Below are positions 2,764 to 20,610 of a DNA stretch of 62,899 bases, piece after piece (the stretch's first letter is position 1; each line of letters opens with the position of its first letter). The DNA lies in assembly GCF_002252625.1 (NCBI RefSeq), contig NZ_NQKW01000019.1, positions 1 through 62,899 of the forward strand. Direction: 5' to 3'. A program made the position numbers and the translations under genes. Below the pieces are notes generated by a model. That model ran no database searches and was not told the DNA's origin. It was given only the letters and a program-made list of their open reading frames with translations. Source of the DNA: Synechococcus sp. 1G10 (GTDB lineage Bacteria; Cyanobacteriota; Cyanobacteriia; PCC-6307; Cyanobiaceae).

Positions 2764-3735
2764 ATGGCCGTTCCTCCCCCGCTGGTCGCCGGCGTGCGTG
2801 CCGCCTGGCGCTGCCAGTGGCGCCAGCTGATGAAGGGCCTGGGCCCAGCCGACGCCGCCGGGAACTACCGGCGCCCTGAGAGCGCCTTCGCCGCCACCCC
2901 GGAACTGCCTGCCACGGCCGCCAACGCTGGCGTCCACGGGCTGATCGTGGGACGCAGCTGCCCCTGGGCCCACCGGGCCTGGCTGGTGTGGAGCCTGCGC
3001 CAGCTCGCCGGCAGCCTGGAGCTTGTTGTGGTGGAACCCGATCCCAAGGCAGGCCGCTGGCGCTTCGATACCCCCTATGAGGGGGCCAACGCCCTGGTGG
3101 AGCTCTACAGGCGCAGTGGCGGTGACCCGAAAGCCCGTGCCACGGTGCCCGCCCTCTACGACCGCCCCGGCCGCCGGATCCTTGTGAACGAAAGCGCCCG
3201 GCTGATCGAACTGCTCAACCGCTGGCCCGCCCCACAGGGGGCTCCGGATCTGCTGCCGGAGGAGCAGGCGGAGGCGATCAGCCACTGGCGGCAGCGGCTG
3301 CAGGAGACTGTTAACGATGGGGTCTACCGCTGCGGCTTCGCGCGCACCCAGGCCGCCTACGACCGGGCCGAAGCTGAACTGTTCGCCAGCCTGGAGGCGG
3401 CGGAGACAGCCCTGGAGCAGGGAGGTCCCTGGCTGTGCGGTGAGCGGCTCACCCTGGCGGATGTGGTGCTCTTTCCGACCCTGATCCGCCTGGAGCTGGT
3501 CTATGCCCCCCTGTTCGGCTGCAGCCGCCGGCCGCTCTGGAACTTCCCTGCCCTGATGAGCTGGCGCGCCCGCCTGCATGCCCTCCCCGGGGTGGCTTCC
3601 ACCTGCTTTGACCAGTCATGGCGCCACGACTACTTCGGGGCCCTCTTTCCCCTCCACCCATCAGGGATCGTTCCGGCAGGGGCGGATCTGGCCACACTGG
3701 TGGCAGGCCCAGCTCCCTCGCGACCCCAGCCATGA
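2764..3735 (+). CDS. Glutathione S-transferase, glutathionyl-hydroquinone reductase type
   Basis: The 323-residue cytosolic protein carries CPWAHR at residues 66-71. This is the signature of the Xi-class / ECM4-YqjG group, where the Cys reduces glutathionyl-hydroquinones. A thioredoxin-fold half (about 55-170) is followed by an all-helical half containing WLCGERLTLADVVLFPTL, the N-capping region seen across GSTs. The start is the first ATG after a non-coding-looking stretch. The stop overlaps the DUF2301 start (ATGA), so the two are translationally coupled, and the ABC-F gene follows by a second overlap. Confidence 0.85.
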   Translation: MAVPPPLVAGVRAAWRCQWRQLMKGLGPADAAGNYRRPESAFAATPELPATAANAGVHGLIVGRSCPWAHRAWLVWSLRQLAGSLELVVVEPDPKAGRWRFDTPYEGANALVELYRRSGGDPKARATVPALYDRPGRRILVNESARLIELLNRWPAPQGAPDLLPEEQAEAISHWRQRLQETVNDGVYRCGFARTQAAYDRAEAELFASLEAAETALEQGGPWLCGERLTLADVVLFPTLIRLELVYAPLFGCSRRPLWNFPALMSWRARLHALPGVASTCFDQSWRHDYFGALFPLHPSGIVPAGADLATLVAGPAPSRPQP

Positions 3736-4390
3736 CCGATCAATCCCAGAACGAGGGCAGCCCGGACGATCCAGTGTTCGAGGGCGTCTATGGACCTTTC
3801 ACGATCACGTCCCTCGACCGGCGCGAGGTGCTTGGCTACCGCCTGGCCCTGCTGGGGTTGGCCCTGGCCCAGGCGGGGCTGCTGCTGCAGTGGGCGCTCT
3901 GGGGCAGCCGGGGGCTCTGGCCGTGGCTGGTGCTGATGGCCGTGGGGCTGGGCCTGGCCCTGCGCTGGATTCACATCTACCTGCGGCCGCTGCACCGGGC
4001 CCTCCAGCTGTTCTGGTTGCTGGGCTGTGCCGGCGGGGTGTCCCTGGCCCTGCGCTCGGGTCAGGCCGCCATGCTCGAAACCCTGGCGGCCGACTCCCGC
4101 TGGATCTGGGCTGTGGGGCCGTTCTTCGCGGCCCTGGCGGGGGTGGGCTTCAAGGAATTCTTCTGCTTCCAGCGGCCCGAAGCGATCGGGGTGACCCTCT
4201 TGCTGCCGGTGGCGCTGCTGGGCCGCCTGGTGGGCCTGCTCGATGACCGCACCACCTTCACCCTGTTGGCCATCGAAGCTGGGTTGCTGCTGATCCTGAC
4301 CCTGCGCAAATTCCCGATGCAGGCCGCCGCCGATGTGGGCGACAAGAGCGTCTTTGCTTATCTGGAGAGCCAGAGGCCTCCCTCGCGAGC

Positions 4391-9078: not shown

Positions 9079-11499
9079 TCATTTCGGCCAGATCACGCTG
9101 CAGCCCTGGCCGCCATCGCCACGCTCGGCATCACTGACCCGCTCCACCCAGGGCACGGTGGCCAGCCACTGGCGCAGTCCGCGTTTGAGCTTGCCTGTAC
9201 CGATGCCATGGATCACCCAGAGCGGGCCATTGGCGTTGCGCAGTTGCTCCTCCACAGCGGCTTCCGCCTCATGCACCCGCATCCCGCGCACGTCCACGGT
9301 GTTGCGTTCGCCTCGCACCTGGGGGCCTGAGCCGCCCAGGTGGCGCCCGCTGGCGCGCACCTCGATCACGGGCTGAGCCTGCTCTGGCGGAGCGGGCTTC
9401 TCACCCTGCAGGCTCTCGATGCCGGAGAGATCGACCTGCAGCCGCAGCACGCCGCAGCGCACGCTCAGTTCGCGGCCATCGGCGCTGATCGCCAGCACCT
9501 GGGCCGCCTTGCCCAGGGAAAGCAGGCGAATGCGCTCCCCCACCACCGGCCGCCAGCCGCTGGTGGCCCGGCGCTGGGGCTGGGGCGTGTGCTCCAGCTG
9601 GAGCTGCTTGAGCCGCATGCCCGCCTGGCGCGCTCGCTCGCCATCGCCACCGCCCTGGCGCAGGCGCCGGATGATCCGGCGCACCTCCTGCTGCCCGTCG
9701 CGGATCGAGTGCTCCAGGGCCTGACGCCGCTGCTCCTGGAGTTCCACCGACTGCTCCTGCTGCTGCTGCCAGCGCTGCAGCAACTCCTCATGCAGCAGTT
9801 CGGTGCGCGCCAGCAGGGCCGCCGCCTCCTCTGCCGCCTCCTGCTGACGGCGGCGCTGATCTTCGAGGCCCCGGATCACCTGGTTCAATTCCCCCTCGCC
9901 CCGGGGCACGAGCAGGCTGTTGGCTTCAGCGATCACCTCCGAATCCAGCCCCAGCCGCTTGGCGATCGCCAGGGCGTTGCTGCGGCCGGGGATGCCCCAT
10001 TGCAGGTGATACGTGGGGGAGAGGGTGTCGCTGTCGAAGGCCACCGAGGCGTTCTCGAAGCGGCTGTCGGTGTACTTGAGCGCCTTGAGTTCACCGAAGT
10101 GGGTGGTGGCGATGGTGAGTCGGGCCCGTTCCGCCAGGTGGCGGAGCAGCGCGATCGCCAGGGCCGTGCCTTCGGTGGGATCGGTGCCGGCACCCACCTC
10201 ATCCAGCAGCACCAGAGTGGCTCCCGGCGACGACGGGGGGGCGTCCAGGGCTTCGAGGATGCGGGCGATGCGACGCACGTGGCCGCTGAAGGTGGAAAGG
10301 TTCTGCTGCAACGACTGTTCGTCACCTATATCGGCCAGCACCAGGGAGCACCAGGGCAGTTGGGGAGTGCCGGAGCAGGGCAGGAACAGCCCGGCCCGCG
10401 CCATCAGAGCCACCAGGCCCACACTCTTGAGGGTCACGGTTTTGCCACCGGTGTTCGGGCCGGTGATCGCCACCACCCGCAACTCCTCGCTCACGGACAC
10501 CGTGACGGGCACCACCCTGGCCTCCCCGCCGCGTTGCTCCTGCCAGAGCAGCAGCGGGTGGCGCAGATCACGCAGCAGAACCGGCGCCTGAGGGTCGGCG
10601 GAAAGTTCCGGGCGCACGGCACCCAGCCACCGGCCGTAGCGGGCTCTGGCAAGGGCGACGTCAAGGGCCACCAGCACCCGGTGCAGCTCCTCGAGGGCTG
10701 GCACCTCTTCGGCCACCAGGGCACTGAGGCTGGAGAGCACCCGCCATTCCTCCTGACGCTCCCGTCCTTCCAGCTCCCGGATCTGGTTGCCGAGCGTGAT
10801 CACGGCCTTCGGCTCGATGAACACCGTGCTGCCCGAAGCGGAACTGTCATGCACCAGCCCCGGCAACTGGGAGGCGGCTGTCACCTTCACCGCCAGCACC
10901 GGGCGGCCATTGCGCTCGGAGATCACGCTGTCCTGAAGCAGCCCCCCCTGGCGGCGCATCAACTCCTGGAGGCGATCCCGCCGCTGCTGACGCAGGCCAG
11001 CCAGCTGCTGGCGGACGCCGGCCAGCTCGGGGCTGGCTCGGTCCGCCACCCGGCCGCCCTCCTCCAGGCAGAAGCGCAGGCGCTGCTCCAACTCCGGCAG
11101 GGTGCGCAGATCGCGCATCAGCAGGCCGCAGACGGGGCGCAGCTCTGGAGCCTCGATCTGGCGGCGCAGGCGGCGGGCCACCGCCTGGGTGGAGGCCACC
11201 GCCAGCAGATCTTCGCCTGCGGCCGTGCCTCCCTTGGCGCAGTGGCGCAGGGTGCCGCTGAGATCGGCGGCGCCCAGGAAGCTGAGCCCCCCCTCGATCA
11301 GGCCATCAAGGTCGAGGAGCTCGCTGGTTTCCGCGAGCAGGCGCAGACTCTCGGCGCGATCATCAGCAAGGGGCAGTGAGCGGCAGTGGGCAGCGCCGGC
11401 ACTGGTGCTCGCGAAGCTCGCCAGGTGCTGCCCCAGCCGCTCCCACTCGAGCAGCTCAAGGGCTTCGGCTGCGATCGCCGTCGTGGCGGAGGGGCTCAA
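9079..11499 (-). CDS. mutS2: MutS2, endonuclease-type MutS homologue with Smr domain
   Basis: MutS2 suppresses homologous recombination or rescues collided ribosomes, depending on species; it is not a mismatch-repair protein. The 806-residue product has the MutS core and clamp (1-320) and an ATPase with GPNTGGKT and LLDEVGAGTDP. A long Gln/Glu/Arg coiled coil (about 510-620) and a KOW-like segment follow. The C-terminal Smr nuclease domain has VDVRGMRVHEA and VIHGIGTGKLK. The start is a TTG overlapping the stop of the VOC gene (TTGA), so the pair is coupled. Confidence 0.95.
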   Translation of the reverse strand: MSPSATTAIAAEALELLEWERLGQHLASFASTSAGAAHCRSLPLADDRAESLRLLAETSELLDLDGLIEGGLSFLGAADLSGTLRHCAKGGTAAGEDLLAVASTQAVARRLRRQIEAPELRPVCGLLMRDLRTLPELEQRLRFCLEEGGRVADRASPELAGVRQQLAGLRQQRRDRLQELMRRQGGLLQDSVISERNGRPVLAVKVTAASQLPGLVHDSSASGSTVFIEPKAVITLGNQIRELEGRERQEEWRVLSSLSALVAEEVPALEELHRVLVALDVALARARYGRWLGAVRPELSADPQAPVLLRDLRHPLLLWQEQRGGEARVVPVTVSVSEELRVVAITGPNTGGKTVTLKSVGLVALMARAGLFLPCSGTPQLPWCSLVLADIGDEQSLQQNLSTFSGHVRRIARILEALDAPPSSPGATLVLLDEVGAGTDPTEGTALAIALLRHLAERARLTIATTHFGELKALKYTDSRFENASVAFDSDTLSPTYHLQWGIPGRSNALAIAKRLGLDSEVIAEANSLLVPRGEGELNQVIRGLEDQRRRQQEAAEEAAALLARTELLHEELLQRWQQQQEQSVELQEQRRQALEHSIRDGQQEVRRIIRRLRQGGGDGERARQAGMRLKQLQLEHTPQPQRRATSGWRPVVGERIRLLSLGKAAQVLAISADGRELSVRCGVLRLQVDLSGIESLQGEKPAPPEQAQPVIEVRASGRHLGGSGPQVRGERNTVDVRGMRVHEAEAAVEEQLRNANGPLWVIHGIGTGKLKRGLRQWLATVPWVERVSDAERGDGGQGCSVIWPK

Positions 11500-11930
11500 A
11501 CCGGCTCCTGCCCAGGCGCGGCCTGCCCTCGCGCCTGAAGCGGCATCACCGGTTGGCCGGTGTTGGAGGCGATGCCGGCTGGTGGCTCATAAAGCATCTC
11601 GAGCCAGTTGCCCTCGGAATCCTGCAGATAAAAGGAGGCGGTGCCGTCACGGTGGTCATGAATGGGCCCGACCCGGTGCCCGGAAGCCTCCAGCTGGGCA
11701 TGGACCTGATCCACCCCGGCGCGGTCCTCGAAGTGGAAGGCGAAGTGTGGGCCAGCCTGGCGGTAGCTGGGGGCGAGCAGGGCGATGCCGTCGCCGGATT
11801 CAGGCGACTGGAGATAGGCCCAGTCGTCGGCATCCCAGGTGACACGCAGACCGAGCGCCACGTAAAAAGCCTTGGCCCGGGCCATGTCCTGTACTTGCAC
11901 GGCCACATGGCCCAGTCGCTGCACGGCCAT
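11496..11930 (-). CDS. VOC-superfamily (glyoxalase-like) protein
   Basis: The 144-residue product shows two beta-alpha-beta-beta-beta modules of the vicinal-oxygen-chelate fold: RLGHVAVQVQDMARAKAFY at the N-terminus and FYLQDSEGNWLEMLYEPP near residue 105. His8 and the Glu of LEMLYE fit two metal-ligand positions. Its substrate cannot be read from sequence. The stop overlaps the mutS2 start, so both are made from one message. Confidence 0.8.
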   Translation of the reverse strand: MAVQRLGHVAVQVQDMARAKAFYVALGLRVTWDADDWAYLQSPESGDGIALLAPSYRQAGPHFAFHFEDRAGVDQVHAQLEASGHRVGPIHDHRDGTASFYLQDSEGNWLEMLYEPPAGIASNTGQPVMPLQARGQAAPGQEPV

Positions 11931-12013
11931 GGCCGTTCACTGTCGCTGGTGCCATTCTGATCGGCCGGTGGGCCCGACCGGGGCTGGTCCGGCGTCGCTG
12001 CACGCCGCCGCGC

Positions 12014-13015
12014 TCAGCCTTCCCGCAACCAGCTGGCTGCCTCGCAGGCGTGATACGTGAGGATCAGATCGGCCCCGGCCCGCTTGAAGCAGAGCAGGGT
12101 TTCCAGCACCACAGCCCGCTCATCGATCCACCCCCGCTCGGCGGCCGCCTTGACCATGGAGTACTCACCACTGACGTTGTAGGCGGCGATCGGCAGTTCG
12201 GTTTCGCCGCGCAGGCGGTGGATGATGTCGAGGTAGGCCAGGCCTGGCTTCACCATCAGGATGTCGGCCCCCTCCTGTTCGTCGAGCAGGGCTTCGGTGA
12301 GCGACTCTCGGCCATTGGCCGGATCCATCTGGTAGGTGCTCTTGTCCTTGGGAATGGGCTTGCTGGAGTCGGTGCGCGGGGCGGAATCCAGGGCTTCACG
12401 GAACGGGCCGTAATACGCGGAGGCGTACTTGGCGGTGTAACTGATGATCCCAACGTGCTCGAAACCCTCCTCATCGAGGGCTTCACGGATGGCGCCGACA
12501 CGGCCATCCATCATGTCGCTGGGGCCGATCAGATCAGCGCCTGCCCTGGCCTGGGCCACCGCCTGGCGGCAGAGGATCGCAACGGTGTCGTCGTTGAGCA
12601 CCACGCCTTCAGGGCTGACGATGCCGTCGTGACCGTCGCAGGAGTAGGGGTCAAGGGCAACGTCGGTCATGATCGCCATGCCGGGATGATCCTGCTTGAG
12701 CCGCCTGATCGCACGGGGGATGAGGCCACCCTCGTTGAAGCATTCAGCGCCGTCCTCGGTTTTGAGGCCATCGGCCACCTTGGGGAAGAGCACCACGCAG
12801 CGGATGCCGAGATCCCAGGCACGGCCCACCTCCTCCACCAGCCCGTCCAGGCTCCAGCGCTGAGCCCCGGGCATGGCAGCGATCGGCTCATTGCTGGCCC
12901 CCTCATGCACGAACAGGGGGTAGATGAAATCGGCGGGGCTGAGCTGGAACTCGCGCACCATGGCCCTGAGGGCTGGCGTGCGGCGCAGGCGCCGCGGACG
13001 GTAGGTGAGTTCCAT
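12014..13015 (-). CDS. hemB: Delta-aminolevulinic acid dehydratase (porphobilinogen synthase)
   Basis: HemB condenses two 5-aminolevulinates to porphobilinogen, feeding chlorophyll, haem and bilin synthesis. The 333-residue product has both Schiff-base lysines (ISYTAKYASA and LMVKPGLAY). The metal loop reads ALDPYSCDGHDG; the Asp residues in place of the usual zinc cysteines point to a Mg-dependent plant/cyanobacterial type. The ATG at 13015 (MELTYRPRRLRRTP) was preferred over one 12 codons upstream because it matches the family's N-terminus. Confidence 0.96.
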   Translation of the reverse strand: MELTYRPRRLRRTPALRAMVREFQLSPADFIYPLFVHEGASNEPIAAMPGAQRWSLDGLVEEVGRAWDLGIRCVVLFPKVADGLKTEDGAECFNEGGLIPRAIRRLKQDHPGMAIMTDVALDPYSCDGHDGIVSPEGVVLNDDTVAILCRQAVAQARAGADLIGPSDMMDGRVGAIREALDEEGFEHVGIISYTAKYASAYYGPFREALDSAPRTDSSKPIPKDKSTYQMDPANGRESLTEALLDEQEGADILMVKPGLAYLDIIHRLRGETELPIAAYNVSGEYSMVKAAAERGWIDERAVVLETLLCFKRAGADLILTYHACEAASWLREG

Positions 13016-13093
13016 GCAACCAGAATGGGTATCTCGATCGTAAAGCCCCACAGGCTCAGAATAGTTTAAAAAACAATTTAAGGCAACGGGCTT

Positions 13094-14192
13094 TTAAATT
13101 AGCCAGGCAAGAATGGCAACAGCGAAGAATCCAGCCAGCGCACTTAGCTGATAAGCTTTGTCCACGCCGTTAATCCTTTTCAGTGCGTCACTTTTCTGAT
13201 GGCCATGAGTTGCCGCATATACATTGCTGCCCCACAGGAAGAGCACAAACAACACAAGAATACGCATAGAGACAATCGAGAAAGGTAAGATAGCTAAGGG
13301 ACGGCAATTCGGCCTTGTATGATTGCTGGAGAAAGATCAGAGTCAGCAGGGCGGTAGAAGGAATCGCCAGGCGGATCTCACCCAGCCCCCCATCCAACAG
13401 GGGAGCCAGCAACACAATCAGCATCACGATCAGAAGCGGCAGGATCCAGGTCACGAAACTGGAGAACGGATCGCCCCTCATCACCACCTGAACACTGAGG
13501 CGCGAGTAGTCCAGATCGCCCTGATCCAGCCCCCAGCTTGTCCCGTAGGAGTGGAGCGACGATACAGATCGAATGGACTCGATATCATAACCATTGATCG
13601 ATGCATAACTGCCAACCTTGCTGTTGCCTGAATCGGTATCGGGAACAAGCACAACATTTCCCTGTTGGCGCGCCAATGCGTCAGGAACAACTTCAAGAAC
13701 CAGTGGCAACACCAAGCGTTCAAAAGGTGATCGCCTGAGATCGACATCGGGAATGTAAAGACTCGTGGAAAAACGAAAGCGCTGATAAAAACGATCTCCA
13801 GGCCTGGGCAACGGGGCCGCCGTATCAGGCTGGATCAGGGCCGACGACGAGTTCACCTGATTGGTAATCTCCACCAGCTGAAGCGGGGTGATTCCCTCAG
13901 CCTCCATCAGGTTCTGCACCTGCCTTGGCCATTCCAACCAATAGAAACCCTCAGCATTGAAGATCCTCTGCCGCAAGGACAAGCTGTGAAGGTTCTCGAT
14001 AAACGTGCCGACCTCAATTCCGATTCCGTTCGAGTCGGCAAGTTCTTTCCCAGGATTCACCAACCTGGTTTCTTCATGAACCAGTGCCGTTGGCAAACCT
14101 CGCTCCAGCGGCACAACTGCCTTAACGGCCACCAAAACCCCGATCACCAGGAGCGCCAACCAAAGCCAAAGCCACCGCCGTTGCAGACCCAA
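13094..14192 (-). pseudogene. Pentameric ligand-gated-channel-like protein, frameshifted before TM4
   Basis: The frame from the TTG at 14192 gives an N-terminal hydrophobic segment, then a beta-rich domain of about 200 residues containing YIPDVDLRRSPFERLVLPLV, which is placed like the conserved loop of Cys-loop receptors. Three helices follow: FVTWILPLLIVMLIVLLAPLL, then LAIPSTALLTLIFLQQSY, then LPSLSYLTFLDCLYAYS. The frame then becomes Cys-rich and stops at 13188. The +1 frame continues with LFVLFLWGSNVYAATHG and a fourth hydrophobic stretch, LAGFFAVAILAWLI, to a stop at 13094. The whole fits a pLGIC with extracellular domain plus four TMs, broken in TM3 near 13240-13260. The family call is from remembered patterns; a sequencing error could explain the shift. 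Confidence 0.5.
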
Positions 14193-14253
14193 ACTCTGAC
14201 CAATTTCTCTCGGGAGAAGTCTGCTGGATCAACCGATGGTCCGTTGCGTGGCT

Positions 14254-15243
14254 TCAGAGCCTGGCGGCATTCATCCAGTCACGGCGGGGATCGAGGCTGC
14301 GGGCCTCTCGCAGCTTCTCCAGCAGCTTCCGTTCTGTGTCGCTGAAGAGCTCCGGCAGCTTGAGGGTGAGGCTCAGCAGGAGATCACCCCGCCCATCCTT
14401 GATTGGCCAACCCTTGCCTTTGAGACGCAGACTGCGGCCCAGGGCTACACCGGGAGGTACCTGCACGGTGGCTTCCCCATCGGGGGTGGCCACCCTCACC
14501 TCACCGCCAAGAGCCAGCTCATCAAGGCTGAGAGGCAGGTCGGCGCGGAGCTGATCGCCATCCAGGCGCCAGATCGGGTGGTCCTGGAGCTGAAGATTGA
14601 GGTAGAGATCGCCGCGGCGGCCGGTGCCGGGCTGCAGGTTGCCCTTGCCCTTGAGCCGCAGGCGGCTGCCACTCCGCACCCCGGCCGGAACACGGACCTG
14701 TACCCGCTCCTCGTTGACGGCCAAGGTGCGCTCGCAGCCACGGAAGGCTTCAGCGAAGCTGAGGCTGATGGTGGCTTCCGCATCCAGATTGAGGACGCCG
14801 CTTCGACCTGTCGCTGGCCCGCCGAAACCGCTGGCAAAGCCTCCGGGGAAACCGCCCGAGAACCCGAACCCACCGGGGCCTGCCCCAAAACCGGTATTTC
14901 CCTGGGCCCCGCCGAAGCGGCCGAGCAGGTCGTTGATGAATTCGTCGAAGTTGCCGTAGCGGCCGAAATCCACATCGAAGCCCGGGGCTGCGCCGGCACC
15001 TCCGCCGGCCTGGCTCCAGTACTGGCCGAACTGCTCATAGCGCCGACGCTTGTCGGGGTCGGAGAGCACCTCATAGGCCTCACTGATCTCCTTGAACTTG
15101 GCCTCTGCCGTGGCATCACCGGGGTTCACATCCGGGTGGTACTGGCGGGCCAGCTTGCGAAACGAGCGCTTGACGGCATCGGCATCAGCACTGCGCTCAA
15201 CGCCCAGAACCTTGAAGTAGTCGCGGTAGCCGTTGGCATTCAT
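14254..15243 (-). CDS. dnaJ: DnaJ-type co-chaperone (CbpA-like, no zinc finger)
   Basis: J-domain proteins stimulate DnaK ATP hydrolysis and deliver substrates. The 329-residue product has a J domain (residues 6-72) with the essential HPD in ARQYHPDVNPG. A Gly/Phe-rich linker with FGRYGNFDEFINDLLGRFGG follows. Two C-terminal beta domains come last, with AGVRSGSRLRLKGKG and the related PGVALGRSLRLKGKG. The CxxCxGxG zinc repeats of type I DnaJ are absent, so this is a type II / CbpA-like member. It diverges from the thioredoxin-like gene across a strongly structured intergenic segment. Confidence 0.92.
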   Translation of the reverse strand: MNANGYRDYFKVLGVERSADADAVKRSFRKLARQYHPDVNPGDATAEAKFKEISEAYEVLSDPDKRRRYEQFGQYWSQAGGGAGAAPGFDVDFGRYGNFDEFINDLLGRFGGAQGNTGFGAGPGGFGFSGGFPGGFASGFGGPATGRSGVLNLDAEATISLSFAEAFRGCERTLAVNEERVQVRVPAGVRSGSRLRLKGKGNLQPGTGRRGDLYLNLQLQDHPIWRLDGDQLRADLPLSLDELALGGEVRVATPDGEATVQVPPGVALGRSLRLKGKGWPIKDGRGDLLLSLTLKLPELFSDTERKLLEKLREARSLDPRRDWMNAARL

Positions 15244-15297
15244 CGAGACAAGCCCATCGGTACGCGAGACGTCGCATGAGCTCCAGTGTCCCAGCCA

Positions 15298-15376
15298 AAG
15301 GTTCGAACAGGTGCCCCCCGAAAGGGCGGAAGCCCGAACGCAGCCCTAATCTCGAGGCACCTGAGACTGGAACCTT
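15298..15376 (+). promoter_or_regulatory. Strongly structured leader upstream of the thioredoxin-like gene
   Basis: Two nested perfect inverted repeats are visible: AAGGTTC (15298-15304) with GAACCTT (15370-15376), and CAGGTGCC (15308-15315) with GGCACCTG (15356-15363). They enclose about 40 nt that include the small hairpin GGGC-GGAA-GCCC (15324-15335). The outer 3' arm ends one nucleotide before the ATG at 15378, so the fold would cover the ribosome-binding region. There is no T-run, so this is not a simple terminator. It matches no riboswitch class I can recall. The mirror structure would lie in the dnaJ leader on the other strand. Confidence 0.45.
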
Positions 15377-15377
15377 G

Positions 15378-15854
15378 ATGCCTGATGCCACCCCCGGCCA
15401 CCCCCGGGCTATCCGGCTGCTTTCCCTGGCACTGATGAGCCTGAGCCTGGTCATGGTGGGGGCCTCAGGCAGCGGCCGCAACCAGGCACTCGCCCGTGAG
15501 GGCAGCCCATCGGACAGTGGCAGCCTCGGCGAAGCCGTGAGCCCATCCACGCCGGAGCAGAAGGCTCTGGTGGAACATCTGCGCACACGCGGAGCGATCT
15601 TTTACGGCGCCTGGTGGTGTCCCCACTGTTTCCACCAGAAGAACCTCTTCGGCACTGAGGCGGGCCAGCGCTTGCCCTACGTTGAATGCGACAAGGACCA
15701 GGCCGGGCGAGAACGCTGCCAGGCGGCCAAGATCCGCGCCTTTCCCACCTGGGATCTTGGTGGCGAGCGCCGTGAAGGACTGCTGACCATCGAGGAACTG
15801 GCTGTCTGGAGTGGCTTCAAGACCAAGGCCGGGGGCAGCTCCAGCAGCCGCTGA
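15378..15854 (+). CDS. Exported thioredoxin-like protein
   Basis: The 158-residue product has a basic start and a hydrophobic signal segment (LLSLALMSLSLVMVGAS), then a thioredoxin-like domain with the redox motif WWCPHC and a later ECDKDQAGRERCQAAKIRAFPTW. This resembles the thioredoxin domain fused to VKOR in cyanobacteria, but here it stands alone. It probably works in the periplasm or thylakoid lumen in disulfide formation. The ATG at 15378 was chosen because it begins a normal signal peptide; a longer frame would add a non-signal-like, Pro/Arg-rich stretch. It converges on the cNMP-binding gene with a 5-nt gap. Confidence 0.8.
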   Translation: MPDATPGHPRAIRLLSLALMSLSLVMVGASGSGRNQALAREGSPSDSGSLGEAVSPSTPEQKALVEHLRTRGAIFYGAWWCPHCFHQKNLFGTEAGQRLPYVECDKDQAGRERCQAAKIRAFPTWDLGGERREGLLTIEELAVWSGFKTKAGGSSSSR

Positions 15855-15859
15855 AACGA

Positions 15860-16294
15860 TCAGTTGAAACCGTAAGGAGCGGTGGTGTCCCGCAGCCGCT
15901 GGGCCAGCTCCTTGATTACGGCCTGAACAATCTCGGGGTGATCAGCCATCAAGGCCTGCAAGGTAGCCTGCTCGATGCGATAGAGCGTGGTTGGATCGAT
16001 CGCGCTCACGGATGCCGAGCGTGGTTCCGGATCGAGGGCGGCAAGCTCTCCCACGATTTCGCCATCCTCAAGTTCCACCACGGTCTGCTCACCGATGTGG
16101 ATGCGCACTTTGCCAGCCACGATCACATACATGGAGGTGCCGAGGTCACCCTTGGCAAAAAGCTGCTCACCGGCAGCGAGATGCACTTCTTCCAGAGCTT
16201 CAGCCAACTGGAGCAGCACTTCATCCGGCGTGGCGGCGAAGATACCGACGGTTTGAAGCCTCAGCAGCTTTTCTTGTATGGCCGCGCTGGTCAT
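15860..16294 (-). CDS. Cyclic-nucleotide-binding domain protein (Crp-like sensor domain only)
   Basis: The 144-residue product is a single cNMP-binding beta-roll: GEQLFAKGDLGTSMYVIVAGKVRIH, then a phosphate-binding cassette reading GEIVGELAALDPEPRSASV. Short helices follow. There is no DNA-binding HTH and no membrane segment, so it is not a transcription factor by itself. It may bind cAMP/cGMP and act through a partner. The ATG at 16294 opens the conserved domain cleanly. Confidence 0.85.
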   Translation of the reverse strand: MTSAAIQEKLLRLQTVGIFAATPDEVLLQLAEALEEVHLAAGEQLFAKGDLGTSMYVIVAGKVRIHIGEQTVVELEDGEIVGELAALDPEPRSASVSAIDPTTLYRIEQATLQALMADHPEIVQAVIKELAQRLRDTTAPYGFN

Positions 16295-20257: not shown

Positions 20258-20275
20258 GGGGGCCTTCCAGCCCCC
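20258..20275 (-). terminator. Terminator hairpin after tmRNA
   Basis: Read on the reverse strand, GGGGGC-TGGAAG-GCCCCC is followed by ATTTCATT. It lies just beyond the tmRNA coding piece and could end that transcript. The T-run is weak, and the helix could instead belong to the RNA. Confidence 0.55.
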
Positions 20276-20276
20276 G

Positions 20277-20525
20277 TGAGTCAATTGGGTGATAAGGCTG
20301 ACTTACCCCATCTCCCTAAGGAGTCAGGCGGCCACAGGGGCGGGCTGACGGGAGAAAGCAACGATGTTGTTCGCTGTTACGGATTTGCTCTTACCGAGCA
20401 GGCTTCAGTCACCCTCCTCATACCCCGTCGAAACCATTGCAGCCCCTTGAAGTGGAGCTGAGCGGAATCGAACCGCTGTCCGAAGAACCGGTGTGAGCCA
20501 CCTAGTCCGCCCGAAGACGGACATT
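20277..20525 (-). ncRNA. ssrA: tmRNA, circularly permuted two-piece type
   Basis: tmRNA frees stalled ribosomes and tags their products. On the reverse strand the T-arm (AGCGG-TTCGATT-CCGCT) and the 3' acceptor strand CAGCTCC plus A come first. A 5-nt linker follows, then the 5' acceptor strand GGGGCTG (5' end at 20446) and the coding piece. The acceptor stem pairs over 7 bp with a G-U at position 3, the alanine identity element; CCA is not fully encoded. The tag frame (20324-20374) reads ANNIVAFSRQPAPVAA then TGA. A P2-like helix joins GGTATGAG of the coding piece with CTCACACC of the acceptor piece. The outer ends given are estimates. Confidence 0.93.
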
Positions 20526-20610
20526 TGCATTGTGGCACCTGCGCCTGCCAACGGCCCAACACCGAGCAGGTGGGCATCCCCGAACCGATGCCGAAGGCCA
20601 CCATGGAGCG

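Follow-up and report, generated by a model that had tools for sequence, protein, structure and literature searches.

A probable pseudogene of a pentameric ligand-gated ion channel between dnaJ and hemB in the picocyanobacterium Synechococcus sp. 1G10

The window analyzed here comprises the whole stretch of 62,899 nucleotides of contig NZ_NQKW01000019.1 (assembly GCF_002252625.1) from Synechococcus sp. 1G10. On its minus strand, a gene related to pentameric ligand-gated ion channels (pLGICs) is located with dnaJ on one side and hemB on the other; the features of this locus are compiled in Table 1. The frame-0 ORF encodes an N-terminal hydrophobic helix, the extracellular beta domain of a pLGIC, M1, M2, and the first half of M3. 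It ends with 22 residues that are read in the shifted frame, followed by a TGA codon at 13190-13188. The N-terminal helix is probably a signal peptide or a signal anchor. The missing end of the channel is stranded in frame +1, within a 57-residue ORF whose ATG is formed out of frame from the TAT-G of M3 codons. For hemB, the ATG at 13015 is the likely start, and the corresponding ORF is open from a GTG at 13051. A promoter scan returned 0 hits, and the number of terminator-like sites was 3, compared to a shuffle mean of 1.6. In an Rfam scan of the window with gathering scores, tmRNA and tRNA were the only matches. A permuted cyanobacterial tmRNA, as expected for this group, lies at 20259-20538.

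Table 1. Features of the dnaJ-hemB locus, given in window positions.
Feature	Positions	Strand	Details and basis
dnaJ-like gene, upstream neighbor	14254-15243	-	PF00226, PF01556
Frame-0 ORF	13188-14192	-	334 aa, TTG start
N-terminal hydrophobic helix	14115-14189	-	residues 2-26 of AlphaFold2 model
Beta6-beta7 "Pro loop" DLRRSPFERLVLPL, Cys-less counterpart of the Cys loop	13701-13742	-	aligned to GLIC LDFRRYPFDSQTL
M1 helix, residues 242-265	13398-13469	-	window AlphaFold2 model
M2 pore helix with acidic -2', R0', P4', L9'	13314-13382	-	M2 of J7-Johnson model (269-291), transferred by alignment
M3, initial part FLDCLYAYS, up to the lesion	13257-13283	-	alignment to relatives, J7-Johnson model
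Frame +1 ORF, 57 aa, holding the stranded tail	13094-13267	-	ORF list, alignment
Lesion point	13255-13256	-	14 bases of four intact relatives absent; exact place alignment-dependent
M3, second half VLFVLFLWGSN, in frame +1	13223-13255	-	alignment to relatives
M4 region, ending with LSALAGFFAVAILAWLI, in frame +1	13097-13204	-	extent from J7-Johnson model; TAA stop at 13094-13096
hemB (delta-aminolevulinic acid dehydratase), downstream neighbor	12014-13015	-	PF00490

The family relationship was assessed by means of sequence and profile searches. Applying phmmer to the PDB, residues 57-307 of the window protein matched a chain of GLIC, the proton-gated pLGIC of Gloeobacter violaceus, with an E-value of 8e-5. 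A profile of seven intact relatives gave ELIC as best match (E 6e-15), and GLIC entries from 4.3e-13. The frame +1 tail alone, at 13097-13258, matched a 48-row family profile with an E-value of 1.7e-11 at positions 294-347 of 348, i.e. at the C-terminal end of the profile. AlphaFold2 modeled the truncated window protein with a mean pLDDT of 86.0. The model consists of a helix (residues 2-26), a beta-rich domain with strands between residues 41 and 240, and three C-terminal helices at 242-265, 268-295 (corresponding to M2), and 304-327; for the final two blocks, which cover residues 321-334, the scores are 59 and 55. For the intact relative from Synechococcus sp. J7-Johnson, a mean pLDDT of 91.8 was obtained. 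Its model contains the beta-rich domain and helices at 240-263, 269-291, 302-330, and 333-367. With Foldseek, the top matches of this model were GLIC entries (E 3.0e-20). VIA-align superposed it on GLIC with a Z-score of 23.2 and an rmsd of 3.2 over 286 aligned residues at 20% identity, and on the ELIC, sTeLIC, and 6v4a entries with Z-scores of 22.3 to 23.0. Note that the fold searches were performed with the J7-Johnson model; the membership of the window gene is based on its own sequence match and on its modeled extracellular domain and three helices. These family matches, which are beyond chance, and the predicted folds support the assignment of the window gene to the pLGIC (Cys-loop/Pro-loop) superfamily, as the initial annotation had proposed.

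With respect to the features of the superfamily, an extracellular beta-sandwich followed by membrane helices was found, together with a match to solved pLGICs. Four transmembrane helices in one frame are present in the J7-Johnson protein and absent from the window, where half of M3 and the whole of M4 fall into another frame; the window gene is therefore classified as a disrupted pLGIC gene and not as a working member. The N-terminal hydrophobic segment, the beta-rich domain, and the DLRRSPFERLVLPL loop that had been recognized in the reverse-strand protein were all recovered in the ORF and the AlphaFold2 model. Of the helices described there as laid out like TM1-TM3, M1 and M2 were confirmed in frame 0 together with the beginning of M3; the rest of M3 is in frame +1. 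One element of the initial annotation has to be redrawn, as two segments of frame +1 had been taken for the fourth helix. According to the alignment, LAGFFAVAILAWLI belongs to M4, but LFVLFLWGSNVY is the second half of M3.

The intact relative and GLIC have in common the fold of the extracellular domain and of M1-M4, and both the Cys-less Pro loop and the acidic -2' pore residue of GLIC also occur in the picocyanobacterial clade. No cysteines flank DLRRSPFERLVLPL in the window protein, as would be required for an animal Cys-loop receptor; flanking cysteines are described as absent from bacterial forms (PMC4795631). The identity to GLIC is about 20%, and the window protein has an E in place of D122 and a G at the position of the pre-M1 arginine R192. 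ELIC and GLIC retain counterparts of D122 and R192, whereas the window lacks both. Furthermore, the picocyanobacterial channel contains P4' in M2, the J7-Johnson model possesses an extra N-terminal helix that is partly comparable to a signal peptide, and the window copy is truncated. The entry 6v4a, which we take to be DeCLIC, is an N-terminally extended bacterial pLGIC whose fold matches that of the intact relative.

A close relative of the window gene is that of J7-Johnson (L015; contig C9 of genome G001), which is 92% identical over the shared frame, occupies the same site between dnaJ and hemB, and is open over 380 codons and intact through M4. This copy, together with those of Tobar12-5m-g, Aphanothece cf. 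minutissima CCALA 015, and G002, was aligned with the window. All four relatives carry 14 bases between window positions 13256 and 13255, and each of them consists of a single open frame that needs no shift. In the window these bases are missing from M3, which moves the frame by one. The comparison with related genomes, which had been recommended as a check for an intact copy, thus yielded single-frame, M4-complete genes, and the suspicion that the window gene is broken was borne out, with the lesion at about 13256/13255 falling inside the suspected stretch 13240-13260. In the 93 other family sequences, which had been selected for open frames, the M3 span P295..W323 invariably comprises 29 residues (93/93), and the profile match extends at least to position 360 of 369, whereas that of the window ends at 315. 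Depending on the assumed ancestor, the lesion junction permits 1-3 bases of microhomology. Judging from the alignment, slippage is therefore a plausible cause of the deletion.

The hemB locus was viewed in 30 chosen genomes, namely nine genomes of the genus returned by the searches and others that were picked partly for having channels. A channel is located between dnaJ and hemB in eight of the 30 (G000, the genome of the window, G001, G239, G119, G078, G136, G013, and G092). In 19 genomes dnaJ and hemB occur together without a channel match, and in two (G017 and G016) no dnaJ match was found within reach of hemB. Three of the eight channels at this site are broken, each by a different lesion: besides that of the window, the copy of G119 has lost its N-terminal part and shows a frame change, and that of G013 contains a TAG codon, frame changes, and a missing stretch. 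In one of the 30 genomes, G004, the slot between dnaJ and hemB is occupied by a DDE transposase gene (L081:2852-3886); a decayed channel hidden in this gap was considered and rejected, as tblastn detected none. G002 harbors its intact channel elsewhere (C4), plus broken pieces of a second copy at C17 (L084, about 3616-4129). In the genome of the window, a second copy of the clade was found neither with the protein query at an E-value of 1 nor with the 48-row profile at 1e-10. Pfam models detected no channel in this genome; as they also missed the window gene itself, they say little about other copies.

The age of the break was addressed by means of substitution patterns. Compared to J7-Johnson, the part of the gene preceding the lesion has a dN/dS of 0.17 at a dS of 0.205, and the tail following it has a dN/dS of 0.16 at a dS of 0.80. 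Since both ratios are well below 1, either the gene was broken recently or it is still under some constraint. At synonymous sites, the tail has diverged four times as much as the pre-lesion part (p 1.4e-4), which neutral decay fails to explain; recombination may have replaced the 3' end. In a comparison with G001, the 100-base blocks of 13000-13299 contain 13-22 differences each, versus 0-8 in most other blocks of 11400-15900; further raised blocks are found at 14000-14199 (10-11) and 15300-15699 (11-23). Two patches, at window positions 13000-13350 and 15300-15699, are 10-23% divergent from G001.

Polarization of the tail changes with Tobar12 as outgroup assigned 7 synonymous and 10 non-synonymous changes to the window branch, versus 9 and 2 to the J7 branch (Fisher p 0.054). 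For the pre-lesion part, nucleotide polarization gave 18 synonymous and 14 non-synonymous changes for the window, versus 14 and 9 for J7, and hence no clear excess. When amino-acid changes were polarized by means of four relatives, the raw counts were 15 for the window and 5 for J7, with 3 undecided. After removal of uncertain rows, namely two of the window that result from the altered frame and two of J7 that precede the start, 13 pre-lesion changes remained for the window versus 3 for J7 (p 0.021); the removal of two more N-terminal rows (3 and 6) left 11 versus 3 (p 0.057). The changes of the window include L136R and E267G (J7 numbering), at sites that are identical in J7 and four other close relatives. 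A FastTree calculation for the core yielded branch lengths of 0.11 for the window and 0.02 for J7, which were given no weight because the polarized counts are milder. The signals of constraint are weak, and we read the substitution pattern as that of an apparently recent break with mild relaxation.

Taken together, we consider it highly probable, at roughly 85%, that the window gene is a disrupted gene, i.e. a recent pseudogene, of a picocyanobacterial pLGIC. Judging from fold and pore residues, the intact relatives would be homopentameric and probably cation-selective channels, having a ligand domain outside the cytoplasm and a pore lined by M2. In the lineage of the window, the deletion of 14 bases within M3 has shifted the frame, and the translated subunit would end soon after the damaged M3, without an M4. 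According to a review (PMC6110938), glycine receptor subunits that lack TM4 form no pentamers and are non-functional, and by analogy the window subunit should fail to assemble into a functional pentamer. The same review describes the oscillator allele of the glycine receptor alpha1 subunit, in which M4 is likewise removed by a small frame-breaking lesion; this receptor is eukaryotic and its lesion lies in the M3-M4 loop, whereas that of the window is inside M3.

Four other explanations were weighed against this one. The gap could be an artefact of assembly or sequencing that conceals an intact gene in the real genome, as the sequence stems from a single draft genome of 84 contigs. We regard this as unlikely, given that the gap is situated inside an otherwise ordinary aligned contig and that there are radical substitutions farther upstream on the window branch as well; in addition, a clean 14-base gap is atypical of base-calling errors. 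It is very improbable that the 57-residue ORF is translated separately and supplies the end of M3 and M4 in trans. This ORF does have an ATG and two hydrophobic stretches, and co-expressed halves of a split glycine receptor alpha1 subunit are reported to restore pentamers (PMC6110938). However, the same out-of-frame ATG exists in three of the four intact relatives, where it has no such role, no Shine-Dalgarno-like stretch was seen by eye upstream of it, and in the window M3 itself is split, whereas in the glycine receptor work only the M3-M4 loop was.

A programmed +1 ribosomal frameshift, which the initial annotation had offered as an alternative to a broken gene, would join the two frames to a four-helix channel or regulate the amount made. 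Both frames are still recognizable and the dN/dS of the tail is low, but four intact relatives possess the 14 extra bases in one open frame and none has the arrangement of the window. Because the length of M3 is constant in the other sequences, the M3 obtained by ribosomal shifting would still lack five residues and would not be a normal one. As, moreover, no known slippery sequence was seen by eye, we hardly give credence to this explanation. Finally, a functional channel without M4, or a ligand-binding subunit that alters assembly, would agree with the modeled beta domain and three helices and with the pre-lesion dN/dS, but is highly improbable in view of the low scores of model residues 321-334, the loss of glycine receptor pentamers upon removal of M4 (PMC6110938), the nearly complete profile matches of the 93 other sequences, and L136R, by which a leucine shared by J7 and four other close relatives is replaced with an arginine.

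For a census, 94 distinct sequences were collected, including that of the window, each of which has an open frame that spans 270 or more profile positions. They originate from the best 30 loci of the family profile search, 60 further regions among its stronger listed matches, and loci obtained before. Note that all of them were found with queries from the clade of the window, that many are close relatives, and that one (L004) belongs to another family. The proline that tips the loop between beta6 and beta7 (P120 in GLIC), whose importance is taken from Table 1 of PMC4795631, occurs in 94/94 sequences and is embedded in SPFE in the window. The aromatic residue of beta9 (W160) is present in 93/94, with a Y in the window, and the prolines of M1 (P204) and of the M2-M3 segment (P247) are invariant (94/94 each), also in the window. 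In the pore, an acidic residue at -2' as well as R0', P4', and L9' are each found in 93 of the 94 sequences; by analogy with GLIC, the acidic -2' suggests cation selectivity.

The residues of the coupling salt bridge show a different picture. Position 122 of GLIC is occupied by D in 10/94 and by E in 18/94 sequences, and position 192 by R in 3/94. If an acid at 122 and an R or K within one place of 192 are counted, 56 of the 94 sequences have neither; both are found in 15, the acid alone in 13, and the base alone in 10. The window contains E at 122, G at 192, and R one place earlier, and thus does not possess the D122-R192 bridge in its usual form. Across 561 pLGICs, D and R of this bridge are reported to be conserved to 93% and 94%, respectively (PMC4795631). 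As these values fall short of universality, sequences without D or R may already be contained in that set; the bridge is highly conserved in pLGICs but not defining for them. Two other cyanobacterial pLGICs (L008 and L009) have kept the counterparts of D122 and R192.

The occurrence of such a channel in a picocyanobacterium had been regarded as unusual, an expectation that did not survive the survey. With the seven-row profile at an E-value of 1e-5, a match was found in 124 of 400 genomes of the GTDB family and in 18 of 59 genera, a count that includes broken and distant copies. The 48-row profile at 1e-10 matched 39 of 291 genomes across the class. Moreover, Synechococcus pLGICs were published as early as 2004 (PMC549065), and a study from 2016 lists those of Synechococcus and also of Prochlorococcus (PMC4795631). 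Pfam models detect few of these genes: in the 400 family genomes, PF02931 (the ligand-binding domain) exceeded its curated cut-off in 9, and PF02932 (the membrane region) gave matches in 40 at an E-value of 0.001 and in 3 above the cut-off. At curated cut-offs, Pfam assigned no family to the window protein and no pLGIC family to that of J7-Johnson; NCBIfam returned only weak LGIC_1/TIGR00860 matches for the window and intact proteins, and proteins of the L006/L007 type gave sub-threshold matches to PF02932. Given the fold match of the intact relative, the failure of Pfam reflects a limit of the models. Our literature searches retrieved no paper that joins ligand-gated ion channels with picocyanobacteria by name and, for the period since 2014, no survey of bacterial pLGIC homologs across cyanobacterial genomes.

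The neighborhood of the channels was then compared between clades. Neighbor counts were based on tblastn with flanks of up to 1.5 kb; greedy ORF calling, which in GC-rich neighborhoods missed several channels and created antisense ORFs, was used only to spot recurrent neighbors. Among the best-scoring 30 loci of the family profile search, the six that belong to the clade of the window have no binding-protein match. In 22 of the other 24, which represent sister clades, a gene for a protein resembling periplasmic binding proteins divergently adjoins the channel (E 1e-91 or better), the two exceptions being G287 and G077. All seven of these proteins that were submitted to Pfam were assigned to Peripla_BP_6. 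Among more distant relatives, no such neighbor was found at 12 loci (G046, G060, and others); the G231 locus and the second channels of G284 and G074 likewise had none. A search for the binding protein in 13 chosen genomes gave 12 matches in nine genomes. Ten of these matches directly adjoin a channel, and the remaining two are beside no channel among the matches listed; the protein is absent from G077, G287, G000, and G001.

Head-to-head pairs are seen among L022-L047 and L166-L181, for example at G094:C1:1559437-1561891. In L009:909-2843 (G052:C289), a single ORF encodes a type-I periplasmic binding domain (PF13458, Peripla_BP_6; E 3e-16) and, behind it, a pLGIC-like part. The region L166 (G253:C2:1029000-1048000) contains three pLGIC genes within about 12 kb together with genes of the Peripla_BP_6 type and Peripla_BP_5 genes, and related arrangements exist in G105 and G344. 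Fusions with PBP-I domains in alpha-proteobacteria have been described, as well as operons with PBP-II genes, and the partner proteins were proposed to concentrate or sense the ligands of the channels (PMC549065). In its main text, PMC4795631 uses none of the words operon, periplasmic, and fused, and within the searches made, the cyanobacterial pair of channel and binding protein was not found in the literature. Gene order and co-occurrence suggest a partnership of the two proteins in the sister clades.

A wider interpretation is offered tentatively, as we consider it possible but somewhat doubtful as a whole. The window gene would be a decaying member of a large picocyanobacterial subfamily that is largely missed by Pfam and mostly lacks the otherwise nearly universal salt bridge by which the extracellular domain is coupled to the membrane part. 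Sister channels would be gated through or together with the head-to-head type-I binding protein, so that the two genes would jointly encode a chemosensory channel of abundant photosynthetic plankton, and the copies between dnaJ and hemB would be partnerless and in the course of being lost.

As a broken gene, the window copy is ordinary; of greater interest is the poorly annotated family to which it leads. To our knowledge, the natural role of prokaryotic pLGICs is unsettled. A role as chemotaxis receptors has been proposed (PMC549065), and the recurrent pair of channel and periplasmic binding protein in picocyanobacteria makes the question of the ligand directly testable. Furthermore, a clade that is mostly devoid of the D122-R192 bridge provides a test of whether this bridge is necessary for gating.
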